A stretch of 64,000 nt of DNA from positions 372,001-436,000 of the forward strand of contig NZ_CP036250.1 in the NCBI RefSeq assembly GCF_004300825.1. Reading direction: 5' to 3'. Position 1 is the first letter of the stretch. The number at the start of each line of letters is the position of its first letter. The notes below the pieces were generated by a model. The model worked only from the letters and a program-made list of their open reading frames with translations. It searched no databases and was not told the DNA's origin. The translations under genes and the position numbers were made by a program. The stretch comes from Egicoccus halophilus. Lineage in GTDB: Bacteria > Actinomycetota > Nitriliruptoria > Nitriliruptorales > Nitriliruptoraceae. Below are positions 22,919-58,473 of this stretch, in pieces.

Positions 22919-24763
22919 ATGCCCTCCCTCGTCGGCCGTCCGCGTCGCCGTGCGCGCTCGCGCCGGCTGGGCGAGGTCGTGCTGCGTCCGGCGCCGCTCA
23001 ACGGACAGCGCGAACGGGGGCTCGCCCTGGCCTCGATGTTGGCCGTCGGCGGGGTGTCGGGGCTCACGGCGCTGGCCGTCGGTGTCGACCGGGTCGCCCG
23101 GCCGGGTGCCATGACCGTCGTCGGGGTGCTGGCCCTGACCGCCACCGTCGCGCTGCTGCGCGGCTGGGAACACGTCCCCGCGTGGGCCTACCACCCGGCG
23201 CTGCTGGTCTGCACCTCGATGGTGTGCGGTGCCGTGCGGTTCGCCGGGGTGGGCACACCGGCCATGGCGTACGCGACCCTGTTGTGCTTCGTGGCCCTCT
23301 ACGCCGGCTTCTTCTTCTCGATCGTGGCCGCGCTCGGTCACGGCCTGTTCGCGATGGTGCTGCTCGGCGGGGTCCTGCACACGCTGCGGCAACCACTCGA
23401 CGTCGAGGTGGTCATGCTCGCCAGCGTCGGCGGGGCCGTCGCCGCGATCAGTCACGCGCTGGCCCGCAGCCGGGCCCGCACGGAGGTCGACGAGCTCACG
23501 GGTGCCCTCAACCGGCGCGGTCTGGAGCGGGCGCTGGCGACGGCCGTGGAGCTGTCGGACGGCCGCGTGCGTCCCCTGTCGGTGGCGTTGCTCGACCTCG
23601 ACGACTTCAAGCGGCTCAACGACACGCTGGGACACGCCCAGGGCGACGCCACCCTGGTGGCGTGCGTCCGGGCCTGGCAACGGTTGCTGCCGCCCGGTAC
23701 GGCCCTGGCCCGGCTCGGCGGCGACGAGTTCGTGGTGGTGCTCGGCGGGGTCGGGCTCGGCGAGGCCCGCCGGGTCGTCGACGGGATCCGTGGGGCGGTG
23801 CCCGAACTGGTCCGCTGCTCCGCCGGACTGGCGGCGTGGCAGCCGGGGGACACGCAGTCGCTGATCCTCAAGCGCGCCGACACGGCCCTGTACGCGGCCA
23901 AGGAGCGCGGCCGCAACCGCACCGCGGTCGTCGGAGACGTCTCCGACCGCGCCGAGGAGCTGTGGCGGGCCCTCGCGCGCGACGAGCTGGTGCTGCACTA
24001 CCAGCCCATCGTCGAGGTGGCCACCGGACGGGTGGTGTCGGTCGAGGCGCTGCTGCGCTGGGAGCACCCCGACGAGGGTCTGCTCGGACCGGGGGACGTG
24101 CTGCCCGTCGCCGAGCGCTGCGGGGCGATCCACGCGGTGGGTCGCTGGGTGCTCGAGGAGGCCTGCCGTCAGGTCCGCGTCTGGCGCGACACGGTGCCCG
24201 GCGCCGACGACCTGCGGGTCACGGTCAACGTCCGCACCTCGCAGCTGCACCGTCCCGAGCTGGTCGACGAGCTCGCCGCCGTGCTGGCACGCCACGCGCT
24301 GCCGCCGACGGTGGTGACGCTGGAGATCACCGAGGACGCCGTGGCCGGGGATCCGCAGCGGGTCCTCGGCACGCTGGAGTCGGTGCGCGCGCTGGGGACG
24401 CCGCTCGCGATGGACGACTTCGGAACCGGGCACTCCTCGCTGGCGCGATTGCGGGAGCTGCCCTTCGACGTGCTCAAGATCGACCGTTCGTTCGTGGCCT
24501 CCCTCGACGTCGACCCCACCAGCGAGGCGTTGTTGACGGCGATCGTCGCGCTCGCCGGCAGCCTGGGCCTGCGCGCGGTCGCCGAGGGCGTGGAGACCCC
24601 CGGGCAGCTCGCGGCGGTCGTGCGCAGCGGCTGCGCCTGGGTGCAGGGCTTCCTGCTCGGCCGTCCGTCGGCCACCGACGCGTTGGAGCAGCGTCTGCGG
24701 ACCGCGGCGGACGAGGCACCATGGCCGGCCGCGACGCGCGGCGCCGAGGCGCCGGCTGCCTAG
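22919..24763 (+). CDS. Membrane GGDEF-EAL cyclic-di-GMP enzyme
   Basis: 614 residues. Residues about 35-190 hold six or so hydrophobic segments and no soluble sensor. A GGDEF domain (about 195-345) has an intact RLGGDEF active site but no RxxD inhibitory site in front of it. The EAL domain (about 355-600) keeps EALLRWEHP, the Asn in [28 protein letters not shown] and AEGVET, so both synthesis and breakdown of cyclic-di-GMP look chemically possible. It is transcribed toward glpF-glpK, 36 bases ahead of glpF. The signal is unknown. Confidence 0.9.
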
Positions 24764-29608: not shown

Positions 29609-30298
29609 ATGAAGGTCATCCTGAAGGACGAGGTCGACAACCTCGGGCTCGCCGGCGACGTCGTCGAGGTCGCGGACGGCTACGGCCGCAACTTCCTGCT
29701 GCCCCGTGGGCTCGCCATCCTGGCGACCAAGGGCGCCATGAAGCAGGCCGAGGCCCTCACCCGCTCGCGCAAGGCCAAGGAGTCCAAGACCCTCGGCTCG
29801 GCGCAGGCGTCGCGGGAGGTGCTCGAGTCGCGGGCGCTGCGCATCGAGGCCCGCGTCGACGAGCGCGGCAACCTCTACGGCTCGGTGAGCGCCAACGACG
29901 TGCAGCGGGTGCTGCGCGAGCGTGGGCACGACATCGAGCGCAAGCGCATCGAACTGCGCGGCACCATCAAGGCCATCGGCAGCTACGAGGTGCCGGTCCG
30001 CGTCCACCCGCAGGTCACCGCCAACGTGACCGTCGAGGTCGTCGACGCCGAGGGGCGCATCAGCCTGCGTGACGGCGCCATCATCGACGCGGAGGCCGTG
30101 GAGGCCGCCGCGGCCGACGTGGCGGCCTCCACCGACACCGACACCGACGTCGAGGTGCTCACCGAGCAGGCGCTCGAGGCGGCTGCCGACTTCGAGCAGC
30201 AGCAGGAGCAGACCGAGGCCGAGGCCGAGGCGGCGCCCGACGCGACCGAGGGCGCAGCCACGGTCGTCGAGGGTGGCGCCGACGAGGACGACGTCTGA
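29609..30298 (+). CDS. rplI: 50S ribosomal protein L9 with long acidic tail
   Basis: 229 residues. Residues 1-50 are the classic N-terminal domain (MKVILKDEVDNLGLAGDVVEVADGYGRNFLLPRG). The connecting helix and C-terminal domain run to about 150 (LRLRE-like helix, VPVRVHPQVTANVTVEVV). The last 75 or so residues are a low-complexity extension rich in Ala, Glu, Asp and Gln (TEQALEAAADFEQQQEQ, then EDDV). L9 is normally about 150 residues, so the tail is an addition. Its function is unknown. Confidence 0.95.
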   Translation: MKVILKDEVDNLGLAGDVVEVADGYGRNFLLPRGLAILATKGAMKQAEALTRSRKAKESKTLGSAQASREVLESRALRIEARVDERGNLYGSVSANDVQRVLRERGHDIERKRIELRGTIKAIGSYEVPVRVHPQVTANVTVEVVDAEGRISLRDGAIIDAEAVEAAAADVAASTDTDTDVEVLTEQALEAAADFEQQQEQTEAEAEAAPDATEGAATVVEGGADEDDV

Positions 30299-30383
30299 TC
30301 AGGGGCTCCACCAGGGGCAGGAGGGTGCACGAGGTGGTCGCCGTCGAAGGACGCGTACCGTGCGTCCTCGGGCGCGCCCGGCG

Positions 30384-31859
30384 ATGAGCGGGTTCCCGCC
30401 GCCGCCGAGCGGACCACTCGAGGACGCACCCCCGGCCCCGGCGAACCCCCGGAGCGCCAACGTCCGGAGCAACGGGTCGGCGGGACGCGGTTACGACCGC
30501 GTCCCGCCGCACTCGTTGGAGGCCGAGGTCTCCGTGCTCGGGGCCGCCCTGCTGTCGCGCAACGCGGCCAGCGAGGCCATCGAGGTGCTCGAGCCCGAGC
30601 ACTTCTACCGCAACGCGCACCGGACGGTCTTCGAGGGCGTCCGTGACCTGCTGGCCGCCGGCGAACCGATCGACACGGTCACGCTGACCGAGTGGCTCGC
30701 CCGTCGGGACCGCCTCGACGAGGTCGGGGGGCCGGCGGCGCTGCACGACCTGACGGTCGCGGTGCCCACGGCGGCCAACGCCGCCTACTACGCCCGCATC
30801 GTGCGCGAGCGGGCACTGCTGCGGCGGTTGATCGACGCCGGCACCGAGGTCGCCAAGCTCGGCTACGAGGCCACCGAGGACGCCGAGACGGTCGTCGACC
30901 GCGCCGAGTCGATCATCTACGACGTCGCCCAGTCGTCGACCACCGCCGACTACGCCAAGCTCGGCGACCTGCTCAACGAGTCGTTCGAGCAGATCGAGAA
31001 GCTGGCCGAGCAGAACTCCGAGGTCACCGGGCTGTCCACCGGGTTCGACGACCTCGACCGCCTCACCGCCGGCCTGCAACCCCAGAACCTCATCATCCTG
31101 GCGGCTCGACCGGCCATGGGGAAGTCGAGCCTCAGCCTCGGGATCGCGCAGTTCGTGACGGTGAAGCTGCGTCGCCCGGCGATCATCTTCAGCCTGGAGA
31201 TGAGCAAGCTCGAGATCGTCAACCGCATGCTGTCCTCCGAGGCGCGCATCGACTCGTCGAAGCTGCGCACGGGCCGGCTCGAGGACACCGACTGGCGCAA
31301 GCTCGGCGACGCGCTCGGTGCCCTGTCCGAGGCGCCGCTGTTCATCGACGACACCCCCTCGATCTCGCTGATGGAGATCCGGGCCAAGTGTCGCCGGCTC
31401 AAGCAGAAACACGGCCTGGACCTGGTCATCGTCGACTATCTGCAGCTGATGCAGTCGCACAAGAGGACCGACTCGCGCCAGCAGGAGGTCTCCGAGATCT
31501 CGCGTGGGATGAAGATGCTCGCCAAGGAGCTCGACGTCCCCGTGATGGCGCTCTCGCAGCTGTCCCGCCAGCCCGAGTCGCGCACCGACAAGCGCCCCCA
31601 GCTCGCCGACCTCCGCGAGAGCGGAAGCATCGAGCAGGACGCCGACATCGTGAGCTTCATCTACCGCGACGAGGTGTACGACGAGGACAGCCCGGACAAG
31701 GGCATCGCGGAGCTGATCGTCGCCAAGCACCGCAACGGTGCCACCGGCGTGGTCAAGCTCGCGTTCCTCAACCACCTGACCAAGTTCGCCAACCTCGCCC
31801 GCGGCTCCGGCGGCGCACCCGGCGGTGGCGGGGCCGGCGGCATGCCGACCCCGATGTGA
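30384..31859 (+). CDS. dnaB: Replicative DNA helicase DnaB
   Basis: 491 residues from ATG 30384. A Pro/Ala-rich N-terminal extension (about 40 residues) precedes the DnaB N-terminal helical domain (VPPHSLEAEVSVLGAALL). The RecA-like C-terminal ATPase has a Walker A loop (ARPAMGKSS, near residue 245), Walker B (LDLVIVDYLQLM) and the arginine-finger region (AKHRNGATG). A ring helicase that unwinds DNA ahead of the fork. No intein interrupts the Walker A or downstream motifs, though inteins are common there in actinobacteria. The C-terminus is Gly-rich. Confidence 0.97.
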   Translation: MSGFPPPPSGPLEDAPPAPANPRSANVRSNGSAGRGYDRVPPHSLEAEVSVLGAALLSRNAASEAIEVLEPEHFYRNAHRTVFEGVRDLLAAGEPIDTVTLTEWLARRDRLDEVGGPAALHDLTVAVPTAANAAYYARIVRERALLRRLIDAGTEVAKLGYEATEDAETVVDRAESIIYDVAQSSTTADYAKLGDLLNESFEQIEKLAEQNSEVTGLSTGFDDLDRLTAGLQPQNLIILAARPAMGKSSLSLGIAQFVTVKLRRPAIIFSLEMSKLEIVNRMLSSEARIDSSKLRTGRLEDTDWRKLGDALGALSEAPLFIDDTPSISLMEIRAKCRRLKQKHGLDLVIVDYLQLMQSHKRTDSRQQEVSEISRGMKMLAKELDVPVMALSQLSRQPESRTDKRPQLADLRESGSIEQDADIVSFIYRDEVYDEDSPDKGIAELIVAKHRNGATGVVKLAFLNHLTKFANLARGSGGAPGGGGAGGMPTPM

Positions 31860-31894: not shown

Positions 31895-32860
31895 ATGACC
31901 GAGCCGCTCGACATCGTCCTGCTCTCCGGATCGGCGAACCGGCAGCTGGCCGGCGCCATCGCCGCCTACCTCGATCACCCGCTGCTGTACGGCGAGGCAC
32001 TGCACTTCTCGGAGGGCAACACCTTCGTCCGGGTGCCCGAGAGCGTGCGTGGACGCGACGTGTTCCTCGTCCAGGGCACCGGGCCGCCGGCCAACGACCA
32101 CTTCATGGAGCTGCTGTTCTGGATCGACGCGCTCAAGCGCGCCAGCGCCGCCTCGGTGACGGTGGTCATGCCCTACTTCAGCTACGCCAAGGGCGACAAG
32201 AAGGACGAACCGCGCGTCTCGATCCGGGCGCGGGTCTGCGCCGACGCGATCGAGGCCGCCGGTGCCGACCGGGTCGTGGTGATGGATCTGCACGCACCCC
32301 AGGTCCAGGGCTTCTTCCGCATCCCGGTCGACGACCTGTACGCCATGCCGGTGCTGTGCGACGCGATCGCCGCCGAGGGCACCGACGAGCTGGTGGTGGT
32401 CTCGCCCGACGCCGGCTTCGCCAAGAAGGCCCGCCAGTACGCCAGCCGGCTGGGCGCCCCGCTGGCGATCGCCGACAAGCAGCGGGTGGACCACCGCGAG
32501 CTGGCCGAGGTGCTCGACCTCATCGGTGACGTCCGCGGCCGGCGCGCGTTGATCGTCGACGACTTCACCATCTCCGGCGGCACGCTGTTCGACGCCGCCC
32601 GGGTCCTGCGCGAGCGCGGCGCGGCCTCGGTCGCCGCGGCCGTCAGCCACAGCCTGCTGCGTGGCGCCGCGCTGGACCGCCTGGCCGAGAGCGCCATCGA
32701 CCGGCTCTACGTCACCGACACCATCGAGCGTGATCCCGACGACGACGCCCGGGCCCGCATCACCGTGGTCGGCGTGGCGGAACTGTTCGGCGAGGCGATC
32801 CGGCGCATCGCCCGGCGGGAGAGCGTCAGCGTCCTGTTCGACGAGGTTCGCCGCCGCTAG
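31895..32860 (+). CDS. prs: Ribose-phosphate pyrophosphokinase family protein
   Basis: 321 residues. The two-domain PRPP-synthetase fold is clear: an N-terminal half with LLSGSANRQLAGAIA and MPYFSYAKGDKKDEPRVSIRARV, VMDLHAPQVQGFF, and a C-terminal phosphoribosyl-binding region. The PRPP loop reads VDDFTISGGT, keeping the two Asp and the Gly-Gly-Thr but replacing the usual Asp-Thr by Ile-Ser. The flexible-loop REPIS motif is also changed. Members of this divergent clade are annotated as PRPP synthetases, but activity here is inferred. Expected role: ribose 5-phosphate plus ATP to PRPP for nucleotide, His and Trp synthesis. Confidence 0.8.
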   Translation: MTEPLDIVLLSGSANRQLAGAIAAYLDHPLLYGEALHFSEGNTFVRVPESVRGRDVFLVQGTGPPANDHFMELLFWIDALKRASAASVTVVMPYFSYAKGDKKDEPRVSIRARVCADAIEAAGADRVVVMDLHAPQVQGFFRIPVDDLYAMPVLCDAIAAEGTDELVVVSPDAGFAKKARQYASRLGAPLAIADKQRVDHRELAEVLDLIGDVRGRRALIVDDFTISGGTLFDAARVLRERGAASVAAAVSHSLLRGAALDRLAESAIDRLYVTDTIERDPDDDARARITVVGVAELFGEAIRRIARRESVSVLFDEVRRR

Positions 32861-32938
32861 TCCACCATCGCCGCTTGACTGCGCCGTTGGACGGCCGACC
32901 GGTGACGCGCGACCCGTGCTGCCGTGAGGATGCAAGGC

Positions 32939-35146
32939 ATGGCCACCGAACTGCAACAGATCCTCGCCCAGGGCGGGCTGCGGACCGCGTTCCAGCCGAT
33001 CGTCGATCTGCGCACGGGTGCGGTCGTCGCCTACGAGGCCCTGACCCGCGGCCCCGCGGGCTCACCGCTCGAGCGGCCCGACCGGCTGTTCGCCGCCGCC
33101 GGCGAGGAGCGTCTGCTCGCCGAGCTCGACACCGCCTGTCTGCGGACCGCGTTCGCCAACGCCGCCCGCGTCGGTTTCGGCGCCGGGATGGGACTGTTCG
33201 TCAACGTCGAGCCCCGCACCCTCGACAGTGCCCGCAGCCTGGCCGAGGAACCGGTGCCCGACGCCCTGGTGGTCGTCGAGCTGACGGAGCGGGCCCTGCT
33301 CGCCCGACCGGCGGACCTGCTGCACACCGTGGCGCTGGCGCGCCGGCGCGGTTGGGCCGTGGCGCTCGACGACGTCGGCGCCGACCCACGCAGTCTCGCG
33401 CTGCTCCCGATCGTCCAGCCCGACCTGGTGAAGCTCGATCTGCGCCTGGTGCAGGACCAGCCGGACCGGCACACCGCCGCGATCGCGACGGCCGTGCAGG
33501 CCGAGGCGGAACGCTCGGGCATGCGCATCCTGGCCGAGGGCGTCGAGACCGAGGCACAGCTGCAGTTCGCCCGCTCCCTCGGCGCCACCTTCTCGCAGGG
33601 GTGGCTGCACGGCCGACCCGAGGCCGAACCCGACCTCGCCGGCCGGACCCGCGTCGATCTGACCGAGCTGTTGCGCGGTGACACCCGCCCAGCCCCGCAG
33701 CAGACGCCCGCCGAGCTGGTGCACCCGCACCACGAGCTGCGACGGGCGACCAAGCCGTTGCTGATCCAGATCAGCAAGCACCTCGAGCGGCAGGCCAAGG
33801 AGGCCGGGGACACGGCGATCCTCCTGGGCACCTTCCAGCACGCACGGTTCTTCGGTGGGGACTCCGCGCGGCGCTACCGGGACCTCGCCGACGTGTGCGC
33901 CTTCGTCGGCGCCTTCGGGGTCGAGATGCCCTTCGAGCCCGCCGCCGGTGTGCGTGGTGGTCTGCTCGAGGCCGGTGACCGGCTCGAGGGCGAGTGGGAC
34001 GTGGTCGTCATCGGGGCCCACTTCGCCGGCGCGCTGGTCGCCGTCGACCTCGGTGACCAGTGCGCCGAGGAGCAGCGGCGCTTCGACTACCTCGTCACCT
34101 ACGACCGCGACATCGTCCAGGACCTGGCACGTTCCCTGCTGGTACGGATCTGGCCCGACCTGCGCCAGGTGGAGCGCAGCGAGTCGGTGATCTCCGCCGC
34201 GACCGGCGCGGTGGTTCTCGACGACGAGGCGACACCGCTCGTCGTCCCCGACACCTTCGGGCCGGAGCACTACCCGCTGCTGGCGCGGGCGCTGGGCGCG
34301 ACCGCCGCCGGGGTGACGGTCGCCGACGCGCGACGGCCCGACCAGCCGCTGGTGTACGTCAACGAGGCGTTCGAGCGGCTCACCGGGTACGGCGTCCAAG
34401 AGGCGCTCGGCCGCAACTGTCGCTTCCTGCAGGGCGTGGGCACCGCACCGGAGGCGATCGACCGGATGCGGGCCGGGATCGCCCAGCGACGGCCGGTGAC
34501 GGTGCGCGTGGTGAACTACCGCCGGGACGGCACGCCGTGGTGGAACGAGGTGCACCTCGCACCGGTGTTCGACGACCGGGGGCAGCTGACCCATGTCGTG
34601 GGCGTGCAACACGACGTCTCCTCCGAGGTCGAGGCCACCTCGCAGCTGCGCTACCTCGCCCGGCACGACCAGCTGACCGGCCTGCGCAACCGCGCCAGCC
34701 TGGTCGAGGACCTGCAGGCGGCCATGGCCGCGTCCGAGGTGGTCGGTCTGTTGTTCTTCCTCGACCTGGTCGGGTTCAAGCAGGTCAACGACCGCCACGG
34801 GCACGGCGCCGGCGACGACCTGCTGCGGCGGGTCGGCTCGGGTGTCTGGTCCGTGCTCGACGAGGGCGCCACGGCGTACCGGCTCGGCGGCGACGAGTTC
34901 GTGGTGCTGCTGCAGGGTCCCTCGGCCGAGGAGGAGGGCGTCGCCGAGCGGGTCGCCGGCGAACTTGCGGCGGCGGTCGCGCGGCCGATGCGGACGGACG
35001 ACGGCAGCCTGGTGCACGTCACCGCCACGGTGGGCTGGTCACGGCTCAGCGACGCCGCCACGGCCGACGAGGCGCTGCGGGCCGCGGACCGGCACCTCTA
35101 CGCGGTCCGACGCGACGTCGCCGGCCGGCCCGCGGGACGACGCTGA
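32939..35146 (+). CDS. EAL-DICT-LOV-GGDEF protein, probable blue-light-sensing cyclic-di-GMP enzyme
   Basis: 735 residues from ATG 32939 (GAGG nine bases upstream). Domains in order: EAL (about 10-240; YEALTRG, VNVEP, ELTE, LVKLD, AEGVET present, loop 6 altered to DDVGAD); DICT sensory domain (about 260-415); LOV-type PAS (about 455-560) with GRNCRFLQG, Cys494 being the expected flavin-adduct cysteine, and the NYRRDGTPWWNEV and VGVQHDVS strands of FMN-binding LOV domains; GGDEF (about 566-730) with RLGGDEF and no RxxD inhibitory site. Cytoplasmic, no membrane segment. Light is inferred to tune cyclic-di-GMP turnover. Stands alone, convergent with the winged-helix regulator. Confidence 0.88.
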   Translation: MATELQQILAQGGLRTAFQPIVDLRTGAVVAYEALTRGPAGSPLERPDRLFAAAGEERLLAELDTACLRTAFANAARVGFGAGMGLFVNVEPRTLDSARSLAEEPVPDALVVVELTERALLARPADLLHTVALARRRGWAVALDDVGADPRSLALLPIVQPDLVKLDLRLVQDQPDRHTAAIATAVQAEAERSGMRILAEGVETEAQLQFARSLGATFSQGWLHGRPEAEPDLAGRTRVDLTELLRGDTRPAPQQTPAELVHPHHELRRATKPLLIQISKHLERQAKEAGDTAILLGTFQHARFFGGDSARRYRDLADVCAFVGAFGVEMPFEPAAGVRGGLLEAGDRLEGEWDVVVIGAHFAGALVAVDLGDQCAEEQRRFDYLVTYDRDIVQDLARSLLVRIWPDLRQVERSESVISAATGAVVLDDEATPLVVPDTFGPEHYPLLARALGATAAGVTVADARRPDQPLVYVNEAFERLTGYGVQEALGRNCRFLQGVGTAPEAIDRMRAGIAQRRPVTVRVVNYRRDGTPWWNEVHLAPVFDDRGQLTHVVGVQHDVSSEVEATSQLRYLARHDQLTGLRNRASLVEDLQAAMAASEVVGLLFFLDLVGFKQVNDRHGHGAGDDLLRRVGSGVWSVLDEGATAYRLGGDEFVVLLQGPSAEEEGVAERVAGELAAAVARPMRTDDGSLVHVTATVGWSRLSDAATADEALRAADRHLYAVRRDVAGRPAGRR

Positions 35147-55626: not shown

Positions 55627-58473
55627 GTGACGCGCACGTCGACACCGCCGGGCCGGCCGCCCGGCGCTCCGGTCGCACGACGGGCACGGCGCGAGGCCGC
55701 GGCGCGGCGATCGGCTCGCGACAGCACCGCTCCAGATCCGGGGGCATCGGCCGATGTTGTCGAGGACGACCCGACCTGCCCGGAGCGTGTGGTGCAACGC
55801 GCCTTCGACCTGATCCGACACGGACCTCCCAGCGCGGCCGACGACTGGCCGCTGCTGCAGCGCATGCGCTGGCGCTTCGTGCTGCTCAACCTGGTCACCG
55901 TGGCGGTGTCGCCGTTCAGCCTGCCGTACCTGCTCGACCAGCCCGGCGGCCACCCGTGGCGCTACCTCGCCGCGATGGTCGTCTTCGGGGCCTGGAACCT
56001 CGCCCTGTACCGCACCGCCGGCCGCTCCGCCGCACTGCGGCTGGCCGGACCGGTCCTGGTCGGCGGCATCGCGCTGGCCGCCGGCCACCACACCTGGGCG
56101 TTCGGGCCGGTCTTCACCGTGGTCTTCCTGGACAGCCTCTACGGCGACCGGCGCTCGGTCGTGCGCTCGGCCCTCGCCTACCTCGCCGCGTACGAACTGG
56201 CCGTGGCGGTGACCGCCGGACGGGTCGAGCTGCTCTCCGCGCAGCTGGCCAGCATGTCGATCGGGTTGCTGGTCGTCGCACTGATGATGGCCGAGATGGC
56301 GCGCATCCTGCGCACCGGGGACCAGGCCCGCCGCCGCGACGAGGTGCTCGCCACGGTGGGACGCGCCCTGCGGCTCGCGCCGGACGCCGACCGGGTGCTG
56401 GAGGTCGCCGCACACGGCATCGCCGAGGTGGTGACCGTGAGCGGGGCCGAGCCGGTGCAGGTCGGCATGTGGCGCCGGCGCGGAGGCGACCTGGTCCTGG
56501 TGGCCAACTGGGGTGAGCCCTCCGCGGTGCAACGGCTGTGCTACGCCGACGTGGCCGCCACCCTCGGTCCGTCCTACGACCCGGGCGCGGTGCTGCGGTT
56601 GTCGCCCGAACAGCTGCGTCGGACCGAGGCCGCGCTCGGGTCGCCTGCCTCCCGCGAGCACGGCCTGTCCCTGCCGCTGGGCGACGACGACGAGTCGCTG
56701 GCGAAGGTGTTCGTCCGTAGCCGGCGCCCGGTGTCCGACGACGAGGTCGGGGCCCTGCGGCGGTTCGCGGACGAGTTCGTGCTCGCCGATCGCGCCGCCC
56801 GTCACACCGCTCTGCTCTCCGCGGTCGTCGACGGCTCGCCGAGCGGCATCGCCCTGGTCGACGACGCCGACCGGCTCGCGTTCGCCAGCCCGGCGGTCGC
56901 GGAGCTGGCGGGCCGCCCGATCGCCCACGGGGACCCGATCGGGACCCTGCTCGTGCACGGTCCCGGTGGCCGGCGCGTCGAGCGGCTCGCGGACCTCGAC
57001 GAGCACGCCGGCGACCTGGCCGTGCGGCGGCCCGACGGCACCCTGCGCGAGGTCGAGGTCTCCCGCCGCGACCTGCCGGGCGAGGGCACCGTCCTCAACC
57101 TGCGGGACGTGTCCGACCAGCGACGTCTCCAGGAGGAGATCAGCTTCCGTGCCTTCCACGACACCCTGACGGGCATCCCCAACCGGGCCCTGTTCCTCGA
57201 CCGGCTCGACCGGGCACTCGCCCAGGCCGCCCGTCACGGCACGACCGTGGCGGTGGCCCTGCTCGACCTCGATGACTTCAAGGCCATCAACGACGGACAG
57301 GGCCACCTCGCCGGTGACCGGGTGCTGGCACACGTGGCCGGCCAGCTGCAGGCCCGGGTCCGCGAGGCCGACACCGTCGCGCGGCTCGGCGGGGACGAGT
57401 TCGCCCTGCTGCTCGACGGCGTCGACGCCGAGCCCGACGTCGAGGACCTGCTCAACGACCTGCTCGCGGGCCTGCGCGAGCCGGTGCAGCTCGACGGTCA
57501 CGCCGTCAGCGTCGCCGCGTCGTGCGGTCTGGTGCTCTCGCGCGGGGAGCACGACGCGGCGGCCGCGCTGGGCGACGCGGACCTGGCGATGTACGCCGCC
57601 AAGGAGGCCGGCAAGGGCACCGTGGTGGTGTTCGACCGGGAGCTGCGCGTCGCCGCCGAGGAACACCTGCTGCTGCGCGGCGACCTCGAGGTCGGCATCG
57701 GGCGCGACGAACTGCGGCTGCACTATCAACCGGTCGTCGCCGTGGCCGACGGACACCCCATCGGTGCCGAGGCGCTGGTGCGCTGGGAACACCCCCACCG
57801 GGGACTGCTGTACCCGGACGCCTTCGTGCCCATCGCCGAGCGCAGCGGGCTGGTCGGCGAACTCGGACGGTGGGTCCTGCGCGCCGCCTGCCGGGAGGTG
57901 GCCGGCTGGATCGCCGAGGGCACCGTCGACCGCCGATTCCAGGTCCACGTCAACCTCTCGGCGCACGAACTGGCCGGCCCCGACCTGGTCGGTGAGGTCG
58001 AACGGGCCCTGACGGACGCGGGACTGGACCCGGCCCAGCTGGTGATCGAGATCACCGAGACGGCCCTGGCGAGCAACCCGGAGATCGCCGAACAGACCCT
58101 GCGGGCACTGCACCGGCTCGGGATCGGCATCGCCATCGACGACTTCGGGACCGGCTACGCCTCGTTCACCTACCTGCGACGGTTCCCGGTCGACATCGTC
58201 AAGATCGACCGCAGCTTCGTGACCGACGTGACCGACGGCCCCGAGCAGGCGGCGCTGGCCCAGGCGATCGTGCGTCTCGCCTCCAGCCTGTGCCTGTCGA
58301 CGGTCGCCGAAGGGGTCGAGCGTCCCGAGACCCGTGAGCTGCTGGCCGGTTGGGGCTGCGAGCACGGCCAGGGATGGCTGTGGTCCAAGGCCGTACCGGG
58401 AGCCGACTTCGTGACCTGGATGCGGCGCCACCGCGCGCCGGAACCACCGTTGGTCGCCGTTCCGGTCGGTTGA
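55627..58473 (+). CDS. Membrane GAF-PAS-GGDEF-EAL cyclic-di-GMP enzyme
   Basis: 948 residues from GTG 55627. A charged N-terminus precedes about six hydrophobic segments (about 85-230). Then come a GAF-like domain (about 240-400, LRLAPDADRVLEVAAHGIAEVV), a short PAS (about 400-500, VVDGSPSGIALVDDADRLAFASPAV), GGDEF (about 505-670) with RLGGDEF and an intact RxxD product-inhibition site (READTVARLGG), and EAL (about 680-930) with EALVRWEHP, VNLSAHEL, IEITET, DDFGTG, VKIDRSFV and AEGVER all present. Bifunctional activity is plausible. Signals unknown. Divergent from the EtfD-like gene. Confidence 0.9.
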   Translation: MTRTSTPPGRPPGAPVARRARREAAARRSARDSTAPDPGASADVVEDDPTCPERVVQRAFDLIRHGPPSAADDWPLLQRMRWRFVLLNLVTVAVSPFSLPYLLDQPGGHPWRYLAAMVVFGAWNLALYRTAGRSAALRLAGPVLVGGIALAAGHHTWAFGPVFTVVFLDSLYGDRRSVVRSALAYLAAYELAVAVTAGRVELLSAQLASMSIGLLVVALMMAEMARILRTGDQARRRDEVLATVGRALRLAPDADRVLEVAAHGIAEVVTVSGAEPVQVGMWRRRGGDLVLVANWGEPSAVQRLCYADVAATLGPSYDPGAVLRLSPEQLRRTEAALGSPASREHGLSLPLGDDDESLAKVFVRSRRPVSDDEVGALRRFADEFVLADRAARHTALLSAVVDGSPSGIALVDDADRLAFASPAVAELAGRPIAHGDPIGTLLVHGPGGRRVERLADLDEHAGDLAVRRPDGTLREVEVSRRDLPGEGTVLNLRDVSDQRRLQEEISFRAFHDTLTGIPNRALFLDRLDRALAQAARHGTTVAVALLDLDDFKAINDGQGHLAGDRVLAHVAGQLQARVREADTVARLGGDEFALLLDGVDAEPDVEDLLNDLLAGLREPVQLDGHAVSVAASCGLVLSRGEHDAAAALGDADLAMYAAKEAGKGTVVVFDRELRVAAEEHLLLRGDLEVGIGRDELRLHYQPVVAVADGHPIGAEALVRWEHPHRGLLYPDAFVPIAERSGLVGELGRWVLRAACREVAGWIAEGTVDRRFQVHVNLSAHELAGPDLVGEVERALTDAGLDPAQLVIEITETALASNPEIAEQTLRALHRLGIGIAIDDFGTGYASFTYLRRFPVDIVKIDRSFVTDVTDGPEQAALAQAIVRLASSLCLSTVAEGVERPETRELLAGWGCEHGQGWLWSKAVPGADFVTWMRRHRAPEPPLVAVPVG

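Follow-up and report, generated by a model that had tools for sequence, protein, structure and literature searches.

The described proteins most closely resembling the one reported here are the LadCs, a group of LOV-activated diguanylate cyclases (MsLadC, of solved structure 8c05, AoLadC, DpLadC and SfLadC; PMC10396304, PMC12805367), in which a LOV domain with canonical adduct residues is directly followed by a GGDEF domain. Their linkers fall into two classes of 21 and 35 amino acids, and light activates the short-linker proteins about 15-fold and the long-linker ones more than 10,000-fold, the linker-linked differences in activity having been measured on four LadC proteins (PMC10396304). AoLadC has a short linker and no RxxD site, and shows no product inhibition (PMC10396304). 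Proteins entered the LadC set only if they had exactly one LOV and one GGDEF domain, and the related proteins mentioned in the same study have a C-terminal EAL domain; when LOV-GGDEF-EAL proteins with a 21-residue linker were cut down to LOV-GGDEF, the truncated pieces displayed no light-regulated synthesis (PMC10396304). Blue light is coupled to an EAL phosphodiesterase in SL2 of Synechococcus elongatus (LOV-GGDEF-EAL; PMC8846402) and, through an FAD-binding BLUF domain, in BlrP1. Actinomycetota further encode EAL-DICT proteins, most of them without LOV and some with an N-terminal GGDEF domain instead. Separate examples of LOV-cyclases and of LOV-phosphodiesterases are known. No description of EAL-DICT-LOV proteins was found among the open-access papers searched.

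The window analyzed is a stretch of 64,000 nucleotides from Egicoccus halophilus (contig NZ_CP036250.1, positions 372,001 to 436,000). The single soluble EAL-DICT-LOV-GGDEF protein that an earlier note had read from one of its ORFs was borne out by a Pfam domain search, in which the EAL, DICT, PAS_9 and GGDEF matches all exceeded the curated cut-offs [Table 1]; PAS_9 matched residues 467-561 (5e-21), and DICT scored 39.5 bits versus a cut-off of 23.8. The ORF starts with ATG, and an in-frame GTG 15 bases upstream, at position 32924, is an alternative start that would add five codons. Like the LadCs, the window protein harbors a LOV-GGDEF pair with intact motifs and a linker of one of the two LadC lengths, exactly 21 residues here and 35 in most of its relatives; with AoLadC it shares both the short linker and the loss of RxxD. 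Unlike them, it has an intact EAL domain and a DICT domain at its N-terminal end, and thus more than one LOV, one GGDEF and no other effector. It may work like a LadC, though not classed as one. SL2 also holds LOV, GGDEF and EAL in one protein, but has its sensor first, its EAL last and no DICT, whereas the window protein has EAL first and GGDEF last; BlrP1, in turn, has no DICT or GGDEF and differs in its chromophore chemistry (FAD in BLUF, as opposed to FMN and a cysteine adduct in LOV). The EAL-DICT unit is the same as that of the actinobacterial EAL-DICT proteins (36-77% identity). Judged by sequence, the window protein resembles a LadC of the short-linker class joined to an EAL-DICT phosphodiesterase of actinobacterial type.

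Table 1 Coordinates in the window of the EAL-DICT-LOV-GGDEF gene and of the features that it encodes.
Feature	Position	Strand	Remarks
EAL-DICT-LOV-GGDEF gene	32939..35146	+	735 aa; 74% full-length orthologue in same-genus genome G001
EAL domain, residues 4-227	32948..33619	+	Pfam PF00563 2e-43; loop 6 DDVGADPRS
DICT domain, residues 267-368	33737..34042	+	Pfam PF10069 6e-10; conserved stretch about 263-405
DICT-LOV tether, residues 406-446	34154..34276	+	Low conservation, length free to vary in family
LOV domain, residues 452-561	34292..34621	+	N493 C494 R495 Q498 R511 N526 N536 Q557
Codon of Cys494, predicted FMN-adduct cysteine	34418..34420	+	GRNCRFLQG; Cys in 113/113 family members
LOV-to-GGDEF signalling linker, D559 to L579, 21 aa	34613..34675	+	Short LadC class (PMC10396304)
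GGDEF domain, residues 574-726	34658..35116	+	Pfam PF00990 2e-28; RLGGDEF intact, DEGA replaces RxxD

Matches at a threshold of E<=1e-60 were found in 13 of the 396 genomes sampled across the phylum, nearly all of them being EAL-DICT only. The domain order, which had been called unusual, is indeed rare in this sample, but in one actinobacterial family, that of Blastococcus sp. TF02A-26, roughly two thirds of the genomes carry it: 91 of 115 gave a match and 77 of 115 hold a copy spanning all four domains. The EAL-DICT-LOV-GGDEF architecture defines an established protein family and is no peculiarity of one genome; G001 and many Blastococcus-family genomes also hold full-length relatives, which rules out a singleton or an assembly fusion. 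A second genome of the same genus, G002, encodes the EAL-DICT part (77% identity) with no LOV-GGDEF, flanked by the same neighbors as in the window (dnaB upstream and a convergent HTH gene downstream), indicating loss or gain of the C-terminal half within the same gene. Trees of the EAL-DICT and LOV-GGDEF parts both joined the window genus and the Blastococcus family with moderate support (88/79 and 87/71, respectively), and independent fusions in the two groups are thus not favored. The comparisons below cover 113 genes (the window gene, that of G001 and 111 from the Blastococcus family) from loci selected by similarity to the window protein, a choice that could enrich for LOV; the same similarity search also found EAL-DICT genes without LOV. 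In five genomes (G430, G432, G435, G442 and G447), a LOV-less EAL-DICT gene adjoins a full-length gene or lies within about 1 kb of it, on the same strand, so that versions with and lacking the photosensor form a tandem pair.

Assignment of the PAS domain to the LOV type was confirmed by structure matches and by modeling. The solved structure best matching the window protein in phmmer searches was 8c05 (1e-43), itself a LOV-GGDEF protein, and the next structure matches for the PAS region were LOV domains. The NCBIfam models YtvA_fam and BluLightHisKinLov matched residues 447-571 below their whole-protein cut-offs, as expected where a single domain is shared. The LOV part of the AlphaFold model (residues 456-562, pLDDT mostly 83-92) superposed, over residues 457-561, on the Meiothermus LOV domain 9vf8 (Z 20.1, 1.5 Å, 55% identity), and on phototropin LOV1. 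These LOV-specific models and structures rule out a chance match of the LOV motif. GRNCRFLQG, NYRRDG..WWNEV and VGVQHDVS lie where the earlier note had placed them, the cysteine is residue 494 as given there, and the complete set of FMN-contact residues looked for around the cysteine was found [Table 1]. With the sole exception of R511, these key residues are present in all 113 genes. The window protein is thus predicted to undergo FMN-adduct photochemistry, and its LOV domain is a probable blue-light sensor.

Some PAS domains bind flavin without serving in light sensing, and the LOV-type PAS might bind flavin and mainly report redox state or flavin supply. We regard this as highly improbable, since the adduct cysteine is unneeded for redox sensing yet is retained in 113 of 113 genes; its retention is not automatic, the cysteine often being missing from LOV-like PAS-GGDEF proteins found outside the family in the same phylum. 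Separately, class relatives encode LOV-GAF-SpoIIE phosphatases (L108:4268-6016 (+) and L109:3420-5705 (-)) which also carry an NCRFLQ motif.

The cyclase motif of the GGDEF domain had been read as intact, and this held: both RLGGDEF (GGDEF, residues 650-654) and the other active-site residues (D609, K614, N617, D626 and R648) are present. Across 33 full-length proteins, the key residues of LOV, EAL and GGDEF are present and invariant. The RxxD product-inhibition site beside RLGGDEF, a common though not a required feature of GGDEF diguanylate cyclases, has in contrast been lost in the window protein (DEGA) and its same-genus orthologue (GAGA) and is kept in 31 of the 31 other full-length proteins. 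Taking the D of D(V/I)(S/T) as its first residue and the L of DxLT as its last, the LOV-GGDEF linker spans 21 residues in the window genus and also in a paralogue clade of 16, against 35 residues in all others, a difference of exactly two heptads that a single change on the tree, i.e., one two-heptad insertion or deletion, suffices to explain. Because RxxD is missing, the cyclase should not be restrained by its product, and the window cyclase is predicted to be modestly light-activated and free of product inhibition. The stretch between DICT and LOV behaves differently from this fixed linker: its anchor-to-anchor distance takes 16 different values between 56 and 78 residues (a range of 22), and it is rich in Pro and Ala, in line with a flexible tether. 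Such a tether argues against direct mechanical control of EAL by light and suggests control through the dimer state rather than by a rigid lever.

The eight catalytic residues of the EAL domain (E33, N89, E114, D144, D145, K165, E200 and Q220) are all present when aligned with 2r6o/3n3t and BlrP1. Loop 6 reads DVGADPRSL and does not match the textbook DFG(T/A)GYSS, a loop that matters in EAL dimerization and metal binding (PMC7290235), and phosphodiesterase activity is thus not assured. The earlier note, pointing to an altered loop 6 (DDVGAD) next to an intact cyclase motif, had proposed that light mainly tunes synthesis. In this reading the EAL domain is impaired and light acts on GGDEF; DDVGAD (residues 144-149) does stand in place of DDFG(T/A)G, and the LadCs provide a precedent. 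We find this proposal unlikely. DD[VA]G[AST][DEN] is found at this position in 113 of 113 genes and DDVGA[DE] is near-universal, so loop 6 marks the family and its normal sequence, which rules it out as a sign of decay. All eight catalytic residues are intact in 109 of 113 genes, the exceptions being one gene at a contig edge, two that lack the N-terminal end or have it out of frame, and a single gene with an E200A replacement. EAL is also the most conserved domain, with 28% near-invariant columns versus 1% for GGDEF across the 113 genes, although the latter figure partly reflects the inclusion of genes without GGDEF. The window EAL fits among EALs whose signature residues partly deviate, some of them functional (PMC12900916), and the domain is predicted to be a competent phosphodiesterase.

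The fate of GGDEF in the family likewise runs opposite to what the proposal that light mainly tunes synthesis predicts. GGDEF is absent from one clade of 12 of the 113 genes, most of which end in a conserved DSPGARRA tail, and is degenerate in 12 more, where xRDSF or similar replaces GGDEF and the other active-site residues are lost; all 24 retain LOV and EAL. Three further genes (L200, L216 and L235) display single odd GGDEF sites. On a quick EAL-DICT-LOV tree, a minimum of six switches between an active and an inactive cyclase was needed, and two of the six explain whole clades. All 12 degenerate proteins (L180, L181, L182, L225, L229-L234, L236 and L237) retain RxxD, in keeping with what a cyclic-di-GMP receptor module should show. 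That at least two clades have kept LOV and EAL while lacking a working cyclase suggests that light reaches EAL, as it does in SL2 and BlrP1, and hence that light also controls the phosphodiesterase.

Taken to its end, this evidence would make the protein a light-controlled phosphodiesterase in which LOV acts on EAL-DICT by dimerization or domain contact and GGDEF is an accessory that binds GTP or serves localization, with little synthesis. Constancy of EAL and LOV among the 113 genes where GGDEF is lost or degenerate, and the fit of the retained RxxD with a cyclic-di-GMP sensing role, both speak for it. Phosphodiesterases activated by blue light have precedents in SL2, with LOV, and BlrP1, with BLUF (PMC8846402), and the light insensitivity of LOV-GGDEF truncations with a 21-residue linker (PMC10396304) also argues against a simple cyclase reading. 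In the window protein, however, the cyclase residues are all intact and the LOV-GGDEF linker is kept at the exact LadC length, while DICT-LOV spacing is free; moreover, EAL-DICT persists in G002 without LOV and thus without light input. On this evidence we consider a protein devoted to light-controlled hydrolysis possible but rather doubtful.

Building on the domains, key residues, linker class, RxxD loss and family conservation established from the sequences, we instead find it reasonably probable that the window protein acts as a bifunctional receptor through which blue light governs cyclic-di-GMP turnover, with a light-raised cyclase and a competent phosphodiesterase. Blue light would generate the Cys494-FMN adduct in LOV and thereby rearrange the LOV dimer, and the change would travel C-terminally to the GGDEF pair as a register shift in the fixed 21-residue coiled-coil linker. 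The outcome would be a moderate rise in cyclase activity, as in short-linker LOV-activated diguanylate cyclases, which in the absence of RxxD would not be held back by product. The N-terminal EAL would act as a competent phosphodiesterase on its flexible tether, with DICT as a putative second input, and light would probably reach EAL too, via the dimer state, thereby setting the balance of turnover and not synthesis alone.

A broader and more tentative proposal, which is possible at best, is that of a two-way valve in which one LOV dimer would drive both the C-terminal cyclase, through the coiled coil, and the N-terminal DICT-gated phosphodiesterase, through the dimer state. Photosensor and phosphodiesterase would stay constant throughout the family, the cyclase being swapped between switch-like (35 residues), graded (21 residues), product-sensing dead (RxxD kept) and absent forms. 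One homologous chassis offers both linker lengths, presence and absence of RxxD, a dead cyclase and no cyclase, and in these natural variants hypotheses about the linker and the I-site can be tested directly. A LOV cyclase bearing a phosphodiesterase at its N-terminal end could also serve two-directional optogenetic control of cyclic-di-GMP.

The family also lends itself to study of the DICT domain, for which a role in the light response has so far only been proposed. DICT is known here from sequence only: no relative of known structure was found by sequence search, and a model of the domain alone (pLDDT 35) was discarded. AlphaFold quality was good for LOV-GGDEF only (residues 456-728, pLDDT mostly 83-94), the EAL and DICT parts being poorly modeled. 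The window protein holds the one DICT domain of the genome (3.98 Mb, one contig), which yielded 25 GGDEF matches and about 20 EAL domains. Two more GGDEF-EAL proteins, one with PAS, are encoded in the window itself at 22919-24763 (+) and 55627-58473 (+).

Only in the window does a prs-type gene (ribose-phosphate pyrophosphokinase; window 31895-32860 (+)) lie between dnaB and the EAL gene. In G002, prs and the EAL gene are on different contigs, and G003 has prs and no EAL gene; an operon link with prs was ruled out, prs being located elsewhere in same-genus genomes. Finally, the dnaB gene of the window (30069-31859 (+)) is devoid of intein, whereas that of G002 (L099:7745-10615 (-)) contains one with a LAGLIDADG domain and that of G001 (L098:2-3886 (+)) apparently two insertions at different places, a presence/absence polymorphism of the dnaB intein inside one genus.
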